Below, in pieces: positions 6,167 to 46,236 of a stretch of DNA of 64,000 bases. This DNA is from Taurinivorans muris. Lineage in GTDB: Bacteria; Desulfobacterota; Desulfovibrionia; Desulfovibrionales; Desulfovibrionaceae. A program made the translations under genes and the position numbers. The DNA lies in the NCBI RefSeq assembly GCF_025232395.1, contig NZ_CP065938.1, forward strand, positions 62,001 through 126,000. Reading direction: 5' to 3'. The notes beneath the pieces are model-generated. The model had not been told where the DNA came from and did not search any database. It saw only the letters and a list, made by a program, of their open reading frames with translations. The first letter of the stretch is position 1, and each line of letters opens with the position of its first letter.

Positions 6167-6692
6167 TCCCATCGCAGGGGATAGCATGATTTTGGTTCTA
6201 TAAATGAATAGGCACGATTATCCTATGAAATTTGATAGTTAATTCATATTGCGCTATTTTTTTGATTTTTGAAATAATTTAGGAAATTATGCTTTCCTTA
6301 TTTCGGTATTGGCGATATACTAAATCTAAATTTTTGTATTGAAATGTGTAGAATGTTTTTTATACAGGAGACTATATTGAGCATACAGACAACAATAAAA
6401 ATAATTTAAATATTAGACTGTTACTCTTTGCTCTTTGATTTATAACTATTAATTAAGTATAGGTAAGATCTACAGTAAAAATGATGATAGATTTATTACA
6501 AGGCTAAGATATCCTTTCTCAGAAGAATTGGATGAATTAAATGAAAGAAATTGTATTTGGGATATCCGTTACTTACTAATTGTATTGTCTTGAAATTGCG
6601 ATAATACTTATTTATAGTATCTCAAGAATTTGCAATAACTTACTAGATACAATTTATTTTTATTCTATATAAATATATTGGAGGGGTAAAAA
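6167..6692. other. AT-rich intergenic gap ahead of the helicase/DarT/ARH operon
   Basis: No complete gene is visible in these 526 bases. One open stretch (about 6465-6593, plus) encodes a 42-residue tail containing RYPFSEELDELNERN but has no start, and may be the end of a lost gene. Two related direct repeats, GAAATTGCGATAATACTTA (6592-6610) and GAATTTGCAATAACTTA (6626-6642), lie 50-100 bases upstream of the helicase start and could bind a regulator. The composition is clearly more AT-rich than the core genes. Confidence 0.5.
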
Positions 6693-8105
6693 ATGAATAT
6701 CAAACCAAGAGGAAAACAGGAAGAGGTTATGGCACTTCCTGCAAAAGGACATATTGTTGTTTTGGGAACAGCTGGAAGCGGAAAAACAACCGTTGCTTTG
6801 TTGCGAGCTCATCATCTCGCTAACATTCCTAATGGTGGCAATGTGTTGCTTGTTACATTTAATGGAGCATTAGTTAAATATATGCGTGAGTTAAGTAATA
6901 ATCAAACTCAAAAACTTGTGGTTGAAAACTATCATACATTTGCTCGTGGTTATTTAAATAGCCGGGGTAAAATGCCAAGCCGGAACGGAATTGCAGAGCC
7001 GAATGAAAAAGAATTTTACATAGCACAGGCTTTGGACTTTTTAAAAAAGAAATATCCAACAGAATCGACTCTTAAGCGTTCTTTAGAATTTTTTATTGAG
7101 GAAATTACATTTATCGAACGATTTGGTTTTTCTGATATTACCGAGTATAAAGAAGCGGAACGTATTGGGCGTGCTTCTGCAAATATTAAACGTGAAAATA
7201 GAAAATGGATTTTTGAGGTATATGACAGATATAGAGAATTGCGTGAAGCAGGTGGTAAAAAATATGATTGGGATGATTTGGCACTATCTGTCTTTAATGA
7301 ATTGCAAAATGACGATAGTGAACGGAGATATACACATATTATTATAGACGAAGGGCAAGATTTTTCACCAATGATGATTAAGTCATTGGTAGAGTCTGTG
7401 GCGGATAATGGATCTCTTACATTTTTTGGGGATGTTGCACAGCAAATCTATGGTAGTCGTTTGTCATGGCGCGATTCTGGTATAGATATAAATAAAGTAT
7501 GGCGCTTTGATGTAAATTATCGTAATCCTATGACAATTACGGAATTTGCAAAATCTATAACTCGAAATAAATACTGGCGACACGATGGAGACATGATAGA
7601 CGCTACTTCTCAGATTGCAAAAGGACCAAAGCCAATATTGATAGAGTTTTCCCATAAACAACATGAAGTTAGTTGGATTGTAGATCGTGTGATAACAATA
7701 GGAAAAGCATCGTCTGCTGTTATTATTTGTAGAAATAGGGATGATATTACTAATTTCTTGTCTTTGTTAAAAAATAAAGGTTGTGAAGCAATAGAAATTA
7801 ATAAAGGAACCCCTGGTTTTGCTCATTTAAAGCAAGTATATCTTACAACTTTTCACGCTGCAAAAGGGTTGGAATTTGACAACGTATTCATTCCATATTT
7901 AACTGAGGATAAAATTCCCGATCCTGATATGATTGCGAGAGCTGTTTCTATTGAGGAAACGTATGCTGATGAAATAAAACTCCTTTATGTTGCTGTAACC
8001 CGATCTAAATACGGTCTTTATATGACCTACAGTGGAAATTTGTCACCTTTATTTCCACAAGAGCCGAATACTTATGACTTCTATTATGAGGATCAGCTGT
8101 CATGA
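6693..8105 (+). CDS. Compact UvrD/Rep-like superfamily 1 helicase
   Basis: This 470-residue ATPase carries every SF1A motif: Walker A GTAGSGKTT (residues 25-33), motif II IIIDEGQDFSP (DEGQD 219-223), motif III FFGDVAQQIYGSR (about 245-256), motif IV NYRNP (275-279), motif V TTFHAAKGLEFD (385-396) and motif VI LLYVAVTRSK (430-439). It is much shorter than UvrD or Rep (about 700 residues) and lacks large 1B/2B insertions, like small helicases found in defence and toxin modules. A strong GGAGGGG site precedes the ATG. Its stop overlaps the start of the DarT-like gene by four bases (ATGA), so the two are translationally coupled. It probably acts on single-stranded or branched DNA; its role in the module is inferred. 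Confidence 0.9.
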   Translation: MNIKPRGKQEEVMALPAKGHIVVLGTAGSGKTTVALLRAHHLANIPNGGNVLLVTFNGALVKYMRELSNNQTQKLVVENYHTFARGYLNSRGKMPSRNGIAEPNEKEFYIAQALDFLKKKYPTESTLKRSLEFFIEEITFIERFGFSDITEYKEAERIGRASANIKRENRKWIFEVYDRYRELREAGGKKYDWDDLALSVFNELQNDDSERRYTHIIIDEGQDFSPMMIKSLVESVADNGSLTFFGDVAQQIYGSRLSWRDSGIDINKVWRFDVNYRNPMTITEFAKSITRNKYWRHDGDMIDATSQIAKGPKPILIEFSHKQHEVSWIVDRVITIGKASSAVIICRNRDDITNFLSLLKNKGCEAIEINKGTPGFAHLKQVYLTTFHAAKGLEFDNVFIPYLTEDKIPDPDMIARAVSIEETYADEIKLLYVAVTRSKYGLYMTYSGNLSPLFPQEPNTYDFYYEDQLS

Positions 8106-8782
8106 GTGCATATGATATTTTGATAACACGCGGTGTTACTCGACTATGTCATTTTACAAAGTTTCAAAGCCTGACACATATTATTACTTCTGTAGATGGT
8201 GTGTTAGCTAGTAGTTCAATACGTCAGGATATGAGAAATGTGAATGATACCGCACGGTATGATGGAGAATTAGATTTTGTATGCTGCTCTGTACAGTACC
8301 CAAATTCGTGGTTCTTAAAAATAGCTATGAAGAATAATTCAGATAGAATTTTTAGTGAGTGGATTGTTTTGTATATTGATTTGAACATACTAAATTATAA
8401 AAAAACAAAATTTTGTCCTTGCAATGCAAGTAAGGAAAATGGAGCTTATATAAATAACAATATGGATGAAATAGATTCCATTTTTGCCCCTTCCGTTTCT
8501 ACTTTTGATTATCCTAGATCACCCAAAATGCTTTCTTGTTGTCCAACAGATGGACAAGCCGAGATATTGATAGAAAATAGTATACCACGAGAATATATCC
8601 AGGGTATTGCTGTTGGTAATAAGGATGTTGCAGGACGTGTTTATTCAATTTTAAAAATGTATGATGTGAAGCATATAAACATATATATTGCTCCAGATGT
8701 ATTGACTCCGAAATGGAGCAATATGAGTAAAGAGGGCTATTCACCAAATGAGATTCTGTACGAATGGTCAGAAGAGGGATAA
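8102..8782 (+). CDS. DarT-like (DUF4433) ADP-ribosyltransferase, probable DNA-modifying toxin
   Basis: A 226-residue protein recognised as DarT-related from its motif order: an N-terminal HFT (residues 17-19) followed by SLTHII, a central DFVCCSVQYPNSWFL strand (58-72), and GQAEILIENSIPREYI (151-166) in which E154 matches the catalytic glutamate of DarT. Known DarT enzymes use NAD+ to ADP-ribosylate thymidine or guanosine in single-stranded DNA and block replication, in toxin-antitoxin and anti-phage roles. The base specificity here is unknown. The start overlaps the helicase stop (ATGA) and the ARH-family gene follows after three bases. No macrodomain DarG gene is next to it. Composition is AT-rich like its operon partners. 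Assignment rests on motif recognition, not a search. Confidence 0.78.
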   Translation: MSAYDILITRGVTRLCHFTKFQSLTHIITSVDGVLASSSIRQDMRNVNDTARYDGELDFVCCSVQYPNSWFLKIAMKNNSDRIFSEWIVLYIDLNILNYKKTKFCPCNASKENGAYINNNMDEIDSIFAPSVSTFDYPRSPKMLSCCPTDGQAEILIENSIPREYIQGIAVGNKDVAGRVYSILKMYDVKHINIYIAPDVLTPKWSNMSKEGYSPNEILYEWSEEG

Positions 8783-8785
8783 ATT

Positions 8786-10354
8786 ATGTCTATGAAAATA
8801 CCGACTCAAATGGAAAAATGTAAAGGAGCAATGTTAGCTACTGCTATTGGCGATGCATTAGGATGGCCTAATGAACCGCGTGCTAAAAACAGAGCAAAAA
8901 AAACAAGAGCTATGGATAATTTTGTTGGCTGGATTCGTAGTTCTAATAATCCGCGGTGGCATGATGAAAAAATTTTGCCCGGCGAGTATAGTGATGATAC
9001 GCAATTGACACTGGCTGTGGCACGAAGTATTATTGCTGGGGATTGGGAGACATTTTTTGCAAAAAAAGAACTTCCTTTTTGGTTAAATTACGAGCGTGGA
9101 GGAGGCAGCGCTTTGCTAAAAGCTGCTAAATCATGCGAAAAGGGAATTTTGTTATGGCAATCTCGATGTAATCGAGATTATTATAATGCTGGCGGAAATG
9201 GGGCTGTAATGCGTATTTTGCCTCATGTTATTGCATCTGCAAAAATACCCAATACTGCGAAACTAATAGTGGATGTTATAAAGGATACTCTTATAACACA
9301 TGGTCATCCTCGTGCGTTTTTAGGAGCAACATGTTATGCCTATGCGCTTGAGTATTTTTTAAAGAAAGAAACCGTTTTAGAATATGGTGAACTTGTTACT
9401 GCAGTAATAGATAGTCAGAATGTTTGGGGGGCGATTCCGGATTTAGATATCTTTGAAAAATGGCTTAATATTGCTCGGAAAAATCTTGAATACGATTTTT
9501 TGCTAGAATGGAAAAATGTCCGTGCTCGCATGGTAAAAAAACTTGAATTTATAAGAAGTTCGTTAAAAAAAGGGTTAATTCTTGATGATACAAAAGTATT
9601 AACTGAGTTAGAATGCTTTGATAAATCAAATGGTGCCGGAGATGTTGCTATATTAGCTGCCATTTATTTAACTTCGAGATATGCAAATAATCCTTCTCTT
9701 GGAATAAAAATCCCCGCGTTCTCATTTGGCGCTGATACCGATACTATTGCATCTATTACAGGCGGATTATTGGGTATGCTTAGCGGAACAGATTGGATTC
9801 CGACAGAATGGAGAGAAGTTCAAGATTATAACTGTCTTATTCAAATGACGGAATTACTAATGGCAGATAATAAAAAGGAAGCTACCGAGAAAGAAGTTGA
9901 AGAGGCAAAAGCTCAGAATAATCAATGGAATTCTACAGTTATTGGTAAAATGCGGTTTATTAAATCAAGTAGTGTCTCAAATGGAAAGAATGGTATTATA
10001 ATAATCAACAAGTGGCAGACTACGCTTGGGCAAACTATATATACAAAGACTTTTCAGCCTAAAAATATATTTATACAATCTCATCAATTACAAAAAACTG
10101 TGTCAAGACCTCAGCAAGTTATACCTAATGAATCGAAAAAATTTGTTCTGAATTTGATGGATATATCAGAACTACTTGGAACTCCAGAGTTTAAAATGAA
10201 TATTACCATAGGTAAAGTTTTGAAAATTATTAAAGACTTAATTAATAATAAAGAAACAAGTAAAAATCTTTCTAAAAAGTATAACGTTGATCAACTATTT
10301 ATAGAACAAATAGGAAAACATGTAATAGGTCTGAAAGATAGTAATCGAGTATAA
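8786..10354 (+). CDS. ADP-ribosylglycohydrolase (ARH/DraG family) with extra C-terminal domain, probable antitoxin
   Basis: A 522-residue protein. Residues 10-350 form an ARH/DraG all-helical hydrolase with its di-magnesium motifs intact: CKGAMLATAIGDALGW, SDDTQ (69-73), GNGAVMR (137-143), HGHPRA (172-177) and GADTDT (315-320). ARH enzymes remove ADP-ribose from modified targets, so this is the natural reverser of the DarT-like enzyme encoded three bases upstream. ARH proteins are usually about 300-350 residues; here about 160 more follow. They comprise a charged helix (361-380), a region of unknown fold (about 385-470), and a short helical segment (about 476-510, VLKIIKDLINNKETSKNLSK) that could be a helix-turn-helix. 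Pairing with DarT is clear from the operon; the antitoxin role is inferred. Confidence 0.85.
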   Translation: MSMKIPTQMEKCKGAMLATAIGDALGWPNEPRAKNRAKKTRAMDNFVGWIRSSNNPRWHDEKILPGEYSDDTQLTLAVARSIIAGDWETFFAKKELPFWLNYERGGGSALLKAAKSCEKGILLWQSRCNRDYYNAGGNGAVMRILPHVIASAKIPNTAKLIVDVIKDTLITHGHPRAFLGATCYAYALEYFLKKETVLEYGELVTAVIDSQNVWGAIPDLDIFEKWLNIARKNLEYDFLLEWKNVRARMVKKLEFIRSSLKKGLILDDTKVLTELECFDKSNGAGDVAILAAIYLTSRYANNPSLGIKIPAFSFGADTDTIASITGGLLGMLSGTDWIPTEWREVQDYNCLIQMTELLMADNKKEATEKEVEEAKAQNNQWNSTVIGKMRFIKSSSVSNGKNGIIIINKWQTTLGQTIYTKTFQPKNIFIQSHQLQKTVSRPQQVIPNESKKFVLNLMDISELLGTPEFKMNITIGKVLKIIKDLINNKETSKNLSKKYNVDQLFIEQIGKHVIGLKDSNRV

Positions 10355-10394
10355 TTGTTATTAAATTATTATTTATTTTAATAGAAGGAGATAT

Positions 10395-10484
10395 TATGCT
10401 GCAATCAAACTATTTATGTATACTACCGAAGATGAAGTCACAAAAATCGAAGTAACATTTGACCATGATACGGTTATGAGTTAG
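10395..10484 (+). pseudogene. Remnant of a RhuM-family protein N-terminus
   Basis: The frame ending at 10484 reads IKLFMYTTEDEVTKIEVTF followed by DHDTVMS and a stop. This resembles the conserved start of RhuM/virulence-type proteins (LYTTEDGKTKIEV...ETVWLS), cut where the family continues for about 300 residues. The ATG with a good AGAAGGAGA site at 10396 is in a neighbouring frame, so a frameshift is also present. RhuM genes are common in mobile and defence islands; this one is dead. Confidence 0.5.
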
Positions 10485-10530
10485 TATTTGTAGGCTTGGC
10501 ATATGGAAAGATGGTTTGTTATGTTTTAAT

Positions 10531-10559
10531 AAAAAAGTGTCGGAGTTTGACACTTTTTT
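10531..10559 (+). terminator. Intrinsic terminator after the helicase/DarT/ARH operon
   Basis: AAAAAAGTGTC pairs with GACACTTTTTT across a 7-base loop, giving an 11-bp stem with a T-rich tail. It can stop transcription coming from the operon and the RhuM remnant before the IS element. Confidence 0.75.
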
Positions 10560-10625
10560 ATTTGTCCGCTTTAGCATAAAAAAACCACCTGCTATGCAGG
10601 TGGAATTAAAAATCTTTAGATGCAA

Positions 10626-10685
10626 AAATGTCCTCCTTTGATATACATTTGATGTGTTCGTCAATCAAATCAAAGGAGGACATTT
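10626..10685 (+). promoter_or_regulatory. Hairpin sequestering the IS200 transposase ribosome site
   Basis: AAATGTCCTCCTTTGAT (10626-10642) and ATCAAAGGAGGACATTT (10669-10685) form a perfect 17-bp inverted repeat. The right arm contains the AAAGGAGG ribosome site of the transposase, which starts at 10688. IS200 is known to repress its transposase with this kind of leader stem-loop. Confidence 0.75.
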
Positions 10686-10687
10686 CT

Positions 10688-11153
10688 ATGAATGGAAATC
10701 AAAGTTTATCCCATATCAAATGGAATTGCAAATATCATATCGTGTTTGCACCAAAATTTCGTCGTAAAGAAATTTATCTGAAAATAAAAAATGATATAGG
10801 AAAAATTCTCAGGCAGCTTTGTGAACAGAAAAAAGTAACAATAAATAGAAGGTGAGATGTGTGCAGATCATGTACATATGTGAGTAGTTATCCCACCAAA
10901 CGTAAGCGTATCATCGTTTGTGGGCTATGTGAAAGGAAAAAGTGCACTGATGATATTTGATAGACATGCAAATCTAAAATATAAATATGGCAACAGACAT
11001 TTTTGGTGCAGGGGTTATTATGTTGATACAGTGGGGAAGAATACAGAGAAAATAAAAGCGTATATTCAAAATCAGTTAAATGAAGATATAATGATTGACC
11101 AATATTCGCTCAAAGAATATTATGACCCGTTTACGGGTAGTAAGAATAAATAA
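10688..11153 (+). pseudogene. tnpA: IS200-type Y1 transposase, broken by a frameshift and a stop
   Basis: From the ATG at 10688 the protein begins MNGNQSLSHIKWNCKYHIVF with the family's FAPKFRRKEIY. The frame is lost near 10843-10853, where one extra base turns the expected VTIIEGEM into NRR-stop. The downstream frame restores EGEMCADHVHM, containing the HUH metal motif, but is interrupted by TGA just after it, then continues VVIPPNVSVSSFVGYVKGKS. The catalytic-tyrosine segment GYYVDTVGKN and the C-terminus follow to 11153. With two lesions it cannot make active TnpA, although intact copies elsewhere could still mobilise the ends. Confidence 0.85.
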
Positions 11154-11288
11154 GGCATTGGTTAGCTGCTTTAGCAGCAGCTTGTGAATAAAATGCGATT
11201 GGCGAACCATTCAAAGCGCCTTAAGGCGCAAGCCAGTACCATGCCCTCCAGGGCTTGAGAAGACCCCCCGCTCAGCCGGTGGTACTTA

Positions 11289-12312
11289 TTAGGATTTTGT
11301 ATTTTCGTTTATTATATCGAGTAAATTTTGCACGGAAATTTCGTCAGTATAGTTGTTTTTTATTGCTTCATAAGGATTGAATTGTTTTAGGAATTTTTTC
11401 GGATCATGCGCATATTGTTTGAGAATTTCAAAAAGTTCTTCCATGCTGGCATATTCCAAACTTGTTTCGTTGGAAGAATACGGGCAAAGTCCTTTTGGGT
11501 GTATGGTGGGCTTGTTTTCCGCCCATGCTTCGAAGTAAGCGATGCCTTGCGTTTCTTGGATATCGGTAAGAATAACGACTAAATCGACATCCTGCAGTTT
11601 TTCTTTCCAGTCAAAATAATTATAATTCATATTTTGATAATAATGAATAACGGAACATTGGATTCCCAATTTTTCTATTTCAGTTATCAAAGCAGTATCA
11701 AGAGGTATTGCTTTAACATAGCAAATGCATTTTTTATTTCCAAGTATCGGGTTATTTTTACCTAACGCGACACCGGACCACCAAATTTTCAGCTTGGCAG
11801 CATTGATTTGTTCTTTTTGGCAGTCGGTTTCAAATTGTGAAGCCGTAAGATGAATGTCGATGGTATCAATATAGCGTTGTCTGATTTCTTGATAACGGAG
11901 CGAATGATATTCCCGTATTTGATAGGCAGTCGGAACAGCGAGGATTTTAATGTTTCTTTCTTGTTTTATTTTTGCAAGCCATTGCAGGTCGTTTATATTA
12001 TCAAGCCAAATCAATATATATATATATATTGGTGTCGGAATGCTGTTTGCCGCTGAAAGCAAAAGGCACATCCAATGCGGTCAAGCCGCGGATAAGGCTT
12101 TTAAAAACTGCGGGATGACGCAGCACTTTGCAGCATTTTGTCAGTTTCAATTCCGCTAATTTTTCAATATTGCTATTTTTTTTGAATTGCTGACGCGTAA
12201 GGGCATAAAAAAAAGATTTTATACGATATTTGACTTGTCCGAACAGATATGAAAAATATGAGCTTTTATTTTTTGCACTTAACGAGAGTATGTTTATTTT
12301 GGGTTTTTCCAT
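11289..12312 (-). CDS. Glycosyltransferase split by an (AT)8 tract, probable phase-variable gene (OFF here)
   Basis: Translation from 12312 (MEKPKINILSLSAKN, after an AAGGAAG ribosome site) runs 103 codons and stops at 12001, just after an (AT)8 tract. The remaining frame continues from the tract to 11289, starting LIWLDNINDLQWLAKI. Nine (or six) AT units would join both into one 341-residue protein. The C-terminal part has a group-1 type motif, QETQGIAYFEAWAENKP, like the donor-binding loop of GT4 enzymes. It would modify a surface glycan at the cytoplasmic membrane face. It sits 78 bases after pnp, behind that gene's terminator, and its 3' end abuts the IS200 element. A plain inactivating mutation is the alternative. 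Confidence 0.7.
12014..12029. repeat. (AT)8 dinucleotide repeat inside the glycosyltransferase
   Basis: Eight uninterrupted AT units lie in the coding region about 95 codons from the start. The two halves of the gene are out of frame by an amount that +1 unit or -2 units would repair. Slipped-strand mispairing at such tracts switches surface-glycan genes in many host-associated bacteria. Confidence 0.85.
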
Positions 12313-12326
12313 TTTGCTTCCTTAAA

Positions 12327-12365
12327 ATAATAACAGAATAAAGCAATGCGATATTCTGTTATTAT
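12327..12365 (-). terminator. Intrinsic terminator downstream of pnp
   Basis: ATAATAACAGAATA and TATTCTGTTATTAT form a perfect 14-bp stem with an 11-base loop, followed leftward by TTTAAGG. It ends pnp transcription and lies directly before the glycosyltransferase ribosome site, so readthrough would be the way to express that gene unless a promoter overlaps it. Confidence 0.75.
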
Positions 12366-12390
12366 TGGTTTTATTTTGTTTTATTTGTTA

Positions 12391-14619
12391 TTAATCTCTT
12401 GGTTCACGGTCACGGCGCGGTTTTCTGTCGTGACGGTCGCCCCTTTGCTCTCTGTTTCCGCGTTCTCTTTTGGGAGGACGGGCGGTATCTTCAGGATTCC
12501 ATTCGATGCCTTGTTCTTCCAAAAGCACAGCTTTACGGCTGGCACGGATTTTATCGCCGTTGATTTCAATGACTTTAACAAGCATGTCTTCGCCAAGATG
12601 AGCGATATCTTCGGTTTTTTCAACGCGGTTGACGTCAAGCTGTGAGATATGCACAAGAGCTTCGACATTAGGCAGGAGTTCGACAATAGCGCCGATTTCC
12701 AAAATACGGCGGACTTTTGCAGTGTAGTTTTTGCCAAGTTCCGCATTTTGGTCGTAATAGAGCACCATTTCTTTGGCTTTTTCCATTGCTTCACTGGTAG
12801 GAGCGAAAATGCTGATTTCGCCGCTGTCGTCAATGTCGATGGTCGCACCGGTAGCCCCGGTGATTGCTTTGATGTTTTTGCCTCCGGGACCGATAATCAT
12901 GCGGATTGTATCAGGATTTACGGTAAGTTGGGCATATTGGGGGGCATATTGTGATAATTCTTTGCGATAGGAAGGAAGAGCCGTAAGCATGATGTTTAAA
13001 ATATGCAAACGGGCTTCTTTTGCCTGTGCCATGGCGCGCGCCATAACGTCTGTGGGCAATCCATTGATTTTTATGTCCATTTGTACGGCTGTGATACCGT
13101 CAGCGCTGCCCGCGATCTTGAAATCCATATCGCCGAGGGCGTCTTCATCGCCTAAAATATCGGTAAGTACGAGATATTCGTCATTTTCTTTGATAAGTCC
13201 CATTGCAACGCCGGCAATAGGGGTTTTGATCGGCACGCCGGCGTCCATGAGGGATAAACAGCCGCCGCAAACGGCAGCCATGGAAGAAGAACCGTTTGAT
13301 TCCACGGTTTCGGAAACAACACGTACGGTAAACGGAAATTCACTTTGGCTTGGGATAATCGCTTTCAAGGCGCGTTCCGCAAGGTGTCCATGTCCGATTT
13401 CACGGCGTGACACGCGCAAAGATTTCACTTCGCCGACGCTGAAAGGCGGGAAATTGTAATGGAGCATGAATTGTTTTACTTCATCACCGCTGTTGATGCC
13501 GTCCGTGCGCAATTCGTCGGAACTTGCGCCCAGGGTCGTGACGACAAGGGCTTTTGTTTCGCCGCGGGCAAAAATAATTGAACCATGGGTTCTCGGAAGG
13601 ACGCTCGTTTCAATTTCAATGGGACGGACGGTTTTGGTGTCGCGGTTGTCGATACGCGTGCCTTCTTTCAAAATACGCTGACGTACGATTTTCTTTTCCA
13701 AATGTTCCAAAATAACGCCGACCTCGCCCATCGCCTCTTCATTGTCGGCATAAGCCGGGTCGTTCCGCATAGCTTCTTTGACAGTGTCCTTCACTTTTTT
13801 GCGGGCGTCTTTGCGTTCCAGTTTGTCGACAACGCGAAGCGCTTCAGCCATGCCGGCATCGAGAGCCAATTTTTCAACATGGGCGTATAAGGCTTCATCA
13901 TCTTCTTTTGGCGTGAAAGGAACTTTCGCTTTGCCTGCTTTTTCCGCAAGTTCCCTTTGGGCTGCGATAAGAGGCTGAATTGCTTTGTGTCCCCATTCAA
14001 GAGCTTCGATGATGACATTTTCGGGAACGAATTTCGCTTCGCCTTCAACCATGACGACAGCGGTTTCAGAAGCCGCGAAAACAAGGTCGAGGTCGCTTTC
14101 TTCCAATTCCTGAATGGTCGGGTTGATTACAAATTCTCCGTTGACACGTCCGAGTCTCGCTCCAGCGATAGGACCGTCAAAAGGAATGTGGGAAACGCAA
14201 AGGGCGGCGGAAGCGGCTGTTATGCATTGCACATCAGGCATGTTTTTGCCGTCAACGGATAAAACCTGCGCCAAAACCTGCACTTCGTTGCCGTATCCTT
14301 TTGGGAACAATGGGCGGATAGGACGGTCGATCAAGCGGGAAATAAGGGTTTCATTATCGCTTGGACGACCGATTTCGCGGCGGAAGAAGTTTCCGGGAAT
14401 GCGGCCTGCCGCATACATTTTCTCAACATATTCAACCGTAAGGGGGAAAAAGTCTTTCGGCGTATCGAGCGGGGTTTCGCAAACAGTGGTAAAACATACT
14501 GTTCCTTCGCATTGTATCCAAATAGCGCCGGCGGCTTGACGGGCGAGCCTGCCGGTTTCCAAAATAATTTCTTTACCGCCGACTGTGGCGGTAACGCGAG
14601 TACAATCTAATAAACTCAT
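12391..14619 (-). CDS. pnp: Polyribonucleotide nucleotidyltransferase (PNPase)
   Basis: The 742-residue phosphorolytic 3'-5' exoribonuclease has two RNase PH-like domains, the first with RREIGRPSDNETLISRLIDR and the second with FMLHYNFPPFSVGE, SRREIGHGHLAERAL and TPIAGVAMGLI. A KH domain follows (RMIIGPGGKNIKAITGATGA, about 555-590), then an S1 domain (YTAKVRRILEIGAIVELLPN, about 625-695). The tail is rich in Arg, Asp and Glu (KRERGNREQRGDRHDRKPRR) and may help RNA or degradosome contacts. It degrades mRNA and matures tRNA as a trimer. It follows rpsO in the classic rpsO-pnp arrangement, with a leader hairpin at 14646-14683. Confidence 0.98.
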   Translation of the reverse strand: MSLLDCTRVTATVGGKEIILETGRLARQAAGAIWIQCEGTVCFTTVCETPLDTPKDFFPLTVEYVEKMYAAGRIPGNFFRREIGRPSDNETLISRLIDRPIRPLFPKGYGNEVQVLAQVLSVDGKNMPDVQCITAASAALCVSHIPFDGPIAGARLGRVNGEFVINPTIQELEESDLDLVFAASETAVVMVEGEAKFVPENVIIEALEWGHKAIQPLIAAQRELAEKAGKAKVPFTPKEDDEALYAHVEKLALDAGMAEALRVVDKLERKDARKKVKDTVKEAMRNDPAYADNEEAMGEVGVILEHLEKKIVRQRILKEGTRIDNRDTKTVRPIEIETSVLPRTHGSIIFARGETKALVVTTLGASSDELRTDGINSGDEVKQFMLHYNFPPFSVGEVKSLRVSRREIGHGHLAERALKAIIPSQSEFPFTVRVVSETVESNGSSSMAAVCGGCLSLMDAGVPIKTPIAGVAMGLIKENDEYLVLTDILGDEDALGDMDFKIAGSADGITAVQMDIKINGLPTDVMARAMAQAKEARLHILNIMLTALPSYRKELSQYAPQYAQLTVNPDTIRMIIGPGGKNIKAITGATGATIDIDDSGEISIFAPTSEAMEKAKEMVLYYDQNAELGKNYTAKVRRILEIGAIVELLPNVEALVHISQLDVNRVEKTEDIAHLGEDMLVKVIEINGDKIRASRKAVLLEEQGIEWNPEDTARPPKRERGNREQRGDRHDRKPRRDREPRD

Positions 14620-36064: not shown

Positions 36065-36080
36065 TTTTTTTTTTTTTTTT
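36065..36080. repeat. Poly-T tract (16 T)
   Basis: Sixteen uninterrupted T in a non-coding AT-rich stretch just upstream of the transposase remnant. Length may vary between cells or by sequencing error. Confidence 0.8.
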
Positions 36081-46220: not shown

Positions 46221-46236
46221 AAAAAAAAAAAAAAAA
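46221..46236. repeat. Poly-A tract (16 A) ahead of the NUDIX gene
   Basis: On the coding (minus) strand the T16 run ends directly in a possible -35, TTTACA, followed by a 16-base spacer and TAAAAT. Changes in tract length could alter the promoter region. Confidence 0.6.

Follow-up and report, generated by a model that had tools for sequence, protein, structure and literature searches.

The split gene and its surroundings

In the 64-kb stretch of the Taurinivorans muris genome analysed here (the window), a minus-strand gene is split into two open frames at a pure dinucleotide tract. The features of the locus, in window coordinates and with the source of each in brackets, are as follows.

12014..12029, no strand: pure (AT)8 dinucleotide tract, proposed slippage site, genome position 74014 (sequence)
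12001..12312, minus strand: N-terminal frame of the split gene, 103 aa at 8 units, with 94 aa before the tract (ORF calls)
11289..12071, minus strand: C-terminal frame of the split gene, a 260-aa ORF with 241 aa after the tract; putative GT4-like C-terminal domain with E-x7-E motif ETQGIAYFE (ORF calls, hhalign)
12316..12323, minus strand: Shine-Dalgarno-like AAGGAAGC upstream of the ATG at 12312 (sequence)
12326..12366, no strand: AT-rich inverted repeat between pnp and the split gene, a possible pnp terminator or processing hairpin (sequence, self-match on the opposite strand)
12391..14619, minus strand: pnp, polynucleotide phosphorylase, named from sequence, 78 bases upstream of the split gene on the same strand (ORF call)
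6199..11322, no strand: strain-specific stretch with DarT, ADP-ribosylglycohydrolase, UvrD helicase and an IS200-like end, replacing the extreme 3' end of the split gene (comparison with UBA8003)

The 103-aa and 260-aa minus-strand frames overlap across the tract, and the ORF calls confirm the initial annotation in that two frames of one gene meet at (AT)8 and that 8 units give a product of 103 residues (frame 12312-12001). Computed from sequence only, the unchanged tract gives 103 aa together with the overlapping 260-aa frame, one added AT unit gives 341 aa, and two added units give 101 aa. According to a hand codon count, the frames join at any unit number divisible by 3, with a product of 341 aa at 9 units and 339 aa at 6; the earlier claim that either 9 or 6 units restore 341 residues is right about the joining and two residues too high for 6 units. 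The internal ATG at 12071 has no ribosome site visible before it on inspection of the sequence, unlike the ATG at 12312. The tract is not a product of chance, since dinucleotide shuffling of the window, repeated 100 times, did not once yield (AT)8 and all other AT runs in the window have 4 units at most. With its 8 units it lies above the threshold of at least 6 units from which dinucleotide tracts are treated as potentially phase-variable (PMC6321876). The window also carries the homopolymers T16 (36065-36080) and A16 (46221-46236), the next longest being of 10 nt, and these two runs are possible further variable tracts.

Searches of the split protein in Pfam, NCBIfam, and PDB sequences gave no significant match. 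In hhalign against 27 GT4 proteins, a faint match was obtained (probability 37-54%, score 32.5), in which ETQGIAYFE, the E-x7-E segment, is aligned to the motif region of the GT4 proteins; the best control scores were 20.5 among 150 shuffles and 22.6 among 7 unrelated window proteins used as decoys. A single-sequence AlphaFold model had a pLDDT of 39.6, too low to read a fold. The glycosyltransferase label given in the initial annotation is weak because the three databases gave no match and GT4 was indicated by profile-profile comparison alone; the protein is likely GT-B/GT4-like. Relatives were found neither in 58 related genomes nor in plasmids, phages, or viral contigs. The single weak match among 297 genomes of the phylum was rejected as spurious, as it runs antisense to other genes.

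The split gene is solitary downstream of pnp and lies outside any glycan cluster. The metagenome-assembled genome UBA8003 of the same species (contig DONZ01000119.1) has about 480 bp in place of the 5.1-kb stretch 6199-11322, and the last ~10 residues of the split protein differ. The stretch contains genes for a UvrD-like helicase (6693-8105), DarT (8102-8782), and an ADP-ribosylglycohydrolase (8786-10354), and it looks like a variant of a DarTG-like toxin-antitoxin/defence system with the ADP-ribosylglycohydrolase as putative partner instead of a macrodomain. A hairpin element of about 91 bp at 11200-11290 adjoins the IS200-like transposase fragment, and five more copies with 84-89% identity and one partial copy are found in the genome.

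AT tracts across the genome

A scan of the single-contig T. muris genome (2.17 Mb) revealed 28 tracts of at least 7 AT units, 11 of them with 7 units and 17 with 8. Below these lengths there is a single tract of 5 units and a gap at 6, and no tract exceeds 8 units. Under Markov models of order 1-5 with the window as training sequence, at most 0.43 AT words of this length would be expected. The shuffles, the Markov expectation, and the missing 6-unit class in the length histogram rule out chance AT-richness as a source of the tracts. Loss of mismatch repair was also rejected: the genome encodes MutS1 in an uninterrupted 903-aa frame, and therefore gross loss of this system is not behind the repeats. 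Runs of 8 units occur in just 4 of 38 related genomes and are abundant only in the congener G004 (16 matches) and in the small-genome family member G010 (7 matches). The tract loci of G004 have merely 29% GC, so its background of AT runs is higher.

Seventeen of the 28 tracts are placed within or at the start of coding sequences and 11 upstream of genes; as the ORF calls are mechanical, individual assignments, above all at gene starts, may be wrong. The genes concerned are mostly of surface, glycan, or signalling types (autotransporter, glycosyltransferase, ManC, O-acyltransferase, PagL, methyltransferase, kinase, GGDEF). A part of the tract loci is given below by genome position; further genes also have tracts upstream.

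ORF split at the present unit number
40138: amidohydrolase
74014: split gene of the window
494915: ManC, upstream of a GDP-mannose dehydratase-like gene
679787: radical SAM protein
1524018: GGDEF protein
Tract in the coding sequence, frame open
1575099, 1577108: two AT3-SGNH O-acyltransferases
676697: methyltransferase
652800: RgpF-like protein
1051189: MBOAT acyltransferase
Tract upstream of the gene
55955, 141486: two autotransporters
688794: PagL
666869: GT2/GT8 protein
2026356, 2030116, 2092746: amidohydrolases
1740172: hybrid histidine kinase

ManC, the mannose-1-phosphate guanylyltransferase/isomerase, is interrupted by (AT)8 (L030:3916-3931), and a whole glycan class may, judging by this split frame, be OFF in the sequenced clone. 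Three tandem paralogues (L035:4179-5493) share a TA tract placed a few codons past a start, of 18, 16, and 16 nt in the window genome; one UBA8003 copy has 20 nt. TTGACA boxes abutting the tracts are frequent (5 perfect boxes on 56 tract sides), with a clear -10 partner only at 254057. The tract genes of G004 are different ones but of the same kinds, namely GT8, GT4, WcbI, AT3 acyltransferases, sulfatases, and an autotransporter, and an in-frame (AT)9 is located inside a true GT4 gene of that genome.

Tract lengths in two strains

UBA8003 belongs to Taurinivorans muris, with more than 98% ANI to LT0009, whose complete 2.2-Mbp genome was obtained from short and long reads (PMC10507020). Two genomes of the species were available, UBA8003 and the window genome, and between them eight orthologous tracts could be compared whose flanks are clean on either side. 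The differences (UBA8003 minus window genome) are 0 for the split gene and -4, 0, +2, -6, +2, 0, and +2 nt for the others; five of the eight tracts thus changed, always by whole units. The flanks of the eight tracts, 10,360 bp in all, have 108 mismatches and 10 indels, and under this flank indel rate five changed tracts are expected with P ~2e-7.

Three of the changed loci can be read further. The GGDEF gene at 1524018 codes for 19 aa in the window genome vs. 500 aa in UBA8003, and this locus is a predicted natural OFF/ON pair in c-di-GMP signalling. Its tract (L038:4019-4035 and L049:2104-2122) lies between divergent GGDEF and histidine kinase genes. A sigma-70-like promoter at 254057, TTGATG-17-TATAAT, has the tract as its spacer, of 17 bp in the window genome vs. 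13 bp in UBA8003; downstream of this promoter (L028:4058-4073 and L077) are a small ORF whose product looks exported and an ORF of 469 aa with no Pfam match. At 1575099 (AT3-SGNH O-acyltransferase), the tract changes by 6 nt, and the frame is kept because of that length. For two further tracts, a contig end or gap in UBA8003 coincides precisely with the tract, which fits mixed lengths in the sample but also plain assembly difficulty.

In the split gene itself, UBA8003 also has exactly 8 units, and its DNA is 99.4% identical. This comparison, of the kind that the initial annotation had called for, returned neither 6 nor 9 units: it is consistent with the proposed OFF state and revealed no length variation at this tract. 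As predicted from the frames, the consensus sequences of the two known genomes, with 8 units each, have the split gene in the OFF state. Additional inactivating mutations, named earlier as evidence that would speak against switching, are absent from the split gene in both strains, where 340 codons contain no further stop or frameshift and the flanking frames are intact. Two one-base indels near codon 32 distinguish the strains, and they compensate each other and preserve the frame.

Proposed phase variation and its alternatives

The split gene is judged likely to be a contingency locus. It probably encodes a GT-B/GT4-like glycosyltransferase, and its (AT)8 tract, which belongs to a genomic set of at least 28, would cause phase variation at the level of translation. 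Replication slippage (slipped-strand mispairing) would gain or lose AT units. Within a coding sequence, a change of units would shift the reading frame, and the two frames of the split gene would be joined at counts divisible by 3; upstream of a gene, it would alter promoter spacing or the leader. At 8 units the split gene would be OFF. Change of tract length was seen at the sister loci, and by analogy with these the tract of the split gene would itself switch. The full-length product would be a functional glycosyltransferase with a surface glycan as its target, and cells would presumably benefit from a mixture of ON and OFF states. The contingency gene proposed in the initial annotation is thus upheld in part, by the tract length above the threshold, the lack of any other lesion, the place among 28 genomic tracts, and the variation of sister tracts; against it stands the count at this tract, which is 8 units in both genomes.

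That identical, frameshifted count would also be expected of a decaying pseudogene, in which the tract slipped once, the gene was dead before the strains parted, and the island inserted at the 3' end is further decay. The disturbed 3' end, different between the strains beside the inserted island, and the lack of relatives of the split protein outside the species point the same way. The absence of relatives also means that conservation of the ON form cannot count for the contingency reading. The shared 8 units, however, carry little weight, since an unchanged count is common among the tracts (three of the eight compared). The 340 codons free of other stops or frameshifts in both strains and the compensating indels near codon 32 also argue against decay, as does the membership of the tract in a clearly non-random genome-wide set. 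A contingency gene is favoured over a dead gene because the frames are free of other damage and 27 further tracts accompany this one in the genome, and a pseudogene is considered unlikely.

It is very improbable that the locus represents two genes or a regulated frameshift, where the 260-aa ORF would be expressed alone from the ATG at 12071, or polymerase or ribosome slippage on the AT run would yield a share of full-length protein, and the tract would tune the level instead of acting as a switch. The 260-aa ORF is open and its ATG is upstream of the tract, but this ATG has no ribosome site, the upstream frame reads through 12071, and the ORF would lose most of a GT-B N-terminal domain; moreover, no slippery motif was identified. 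AT-type tracts are error-prone in long reads, and the count could in principle be a consensus or assembly error. This is the least credible explanation and can hardly be entertained, since the UBA8003 assembly independently reads 8 units with the flanking frames intact; both assemblies agree, a tract of 16 nt fits well inside a short read, and both short and long reads went into the genome of LT0009 (PMC10507020), which is probably the window genome.

Beyond the single locus, ON/OFF switches that act at random are probably spread over the whole T. muris genome. With good confidence, Taurinivorans is regarded as having a multi-locus phasome that consists almost wholly of (AT)7-9 and switches surface glycans, autotransporters, and signalling (GGDEF, histidine kinases), with mutS intact. 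In Haemophilus and Neisseria, which are human-adapted pathogens, surface-modifying (glycan) genes are switched through frameshifts by repeats, mainly tetranucleotide in H. influenzae or mixed. Frameshift switching of surface-modifying genes would be alike in T. muris, while the host here is a mouse-gut sulfidogen. Phase variation by simple sequence repeats, TA dinucleotides included, is well known: in hifA/hifB of Haemophilus influenzae, slippage in a (TA)9-11 promoter tract changes promoter spacing (PMC2651432). The intergenic tracts of T. muris share the TA dinucleotide, a similar unit number, and the spacing effect, e.g., TTGATG-(TA)8 G-TATAAT; unlike that single H. influenzae locus, about 28 loci with the AT unit are present in T. 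muris, and the window tract is inside a coding sequence. Campylobacter phasomes, in which poly-G/C makes up 91% of tracts and dinucleotide repeats are seldom found, involve surface-glycan and other genes (PMC6321876). The T. muris set resembles them in its many short repeats, in such genes, and in the proposed translational ON/OFF switching, and differs in that its repeat is (AT)n instead of poly-G.

In the open-access literature, with subscription papers outside the search, phase variation was not reported for Taurinivorans, nor repeat-driven switching for its family, and the paper describing T. muris is silent on phase variation. The AT-dinucleotide phasome of T. muris is apparently unreported, with an unusual reliance on one dinucleotide and an unexpected host. 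T. muris has been cultured from mouse gut and has 28 AT tracts, several of them strain-variable, which makes the proposal testable in a gnotobiotic model. If it is true, the repertoire of tracts turns over among species of the genus, single LT0009 cultures would be mixtures of different surface and signalling states, and bet-hedging by repeats would operate at this scale in a non-pathogenic sulfidogenic gut symbiont.
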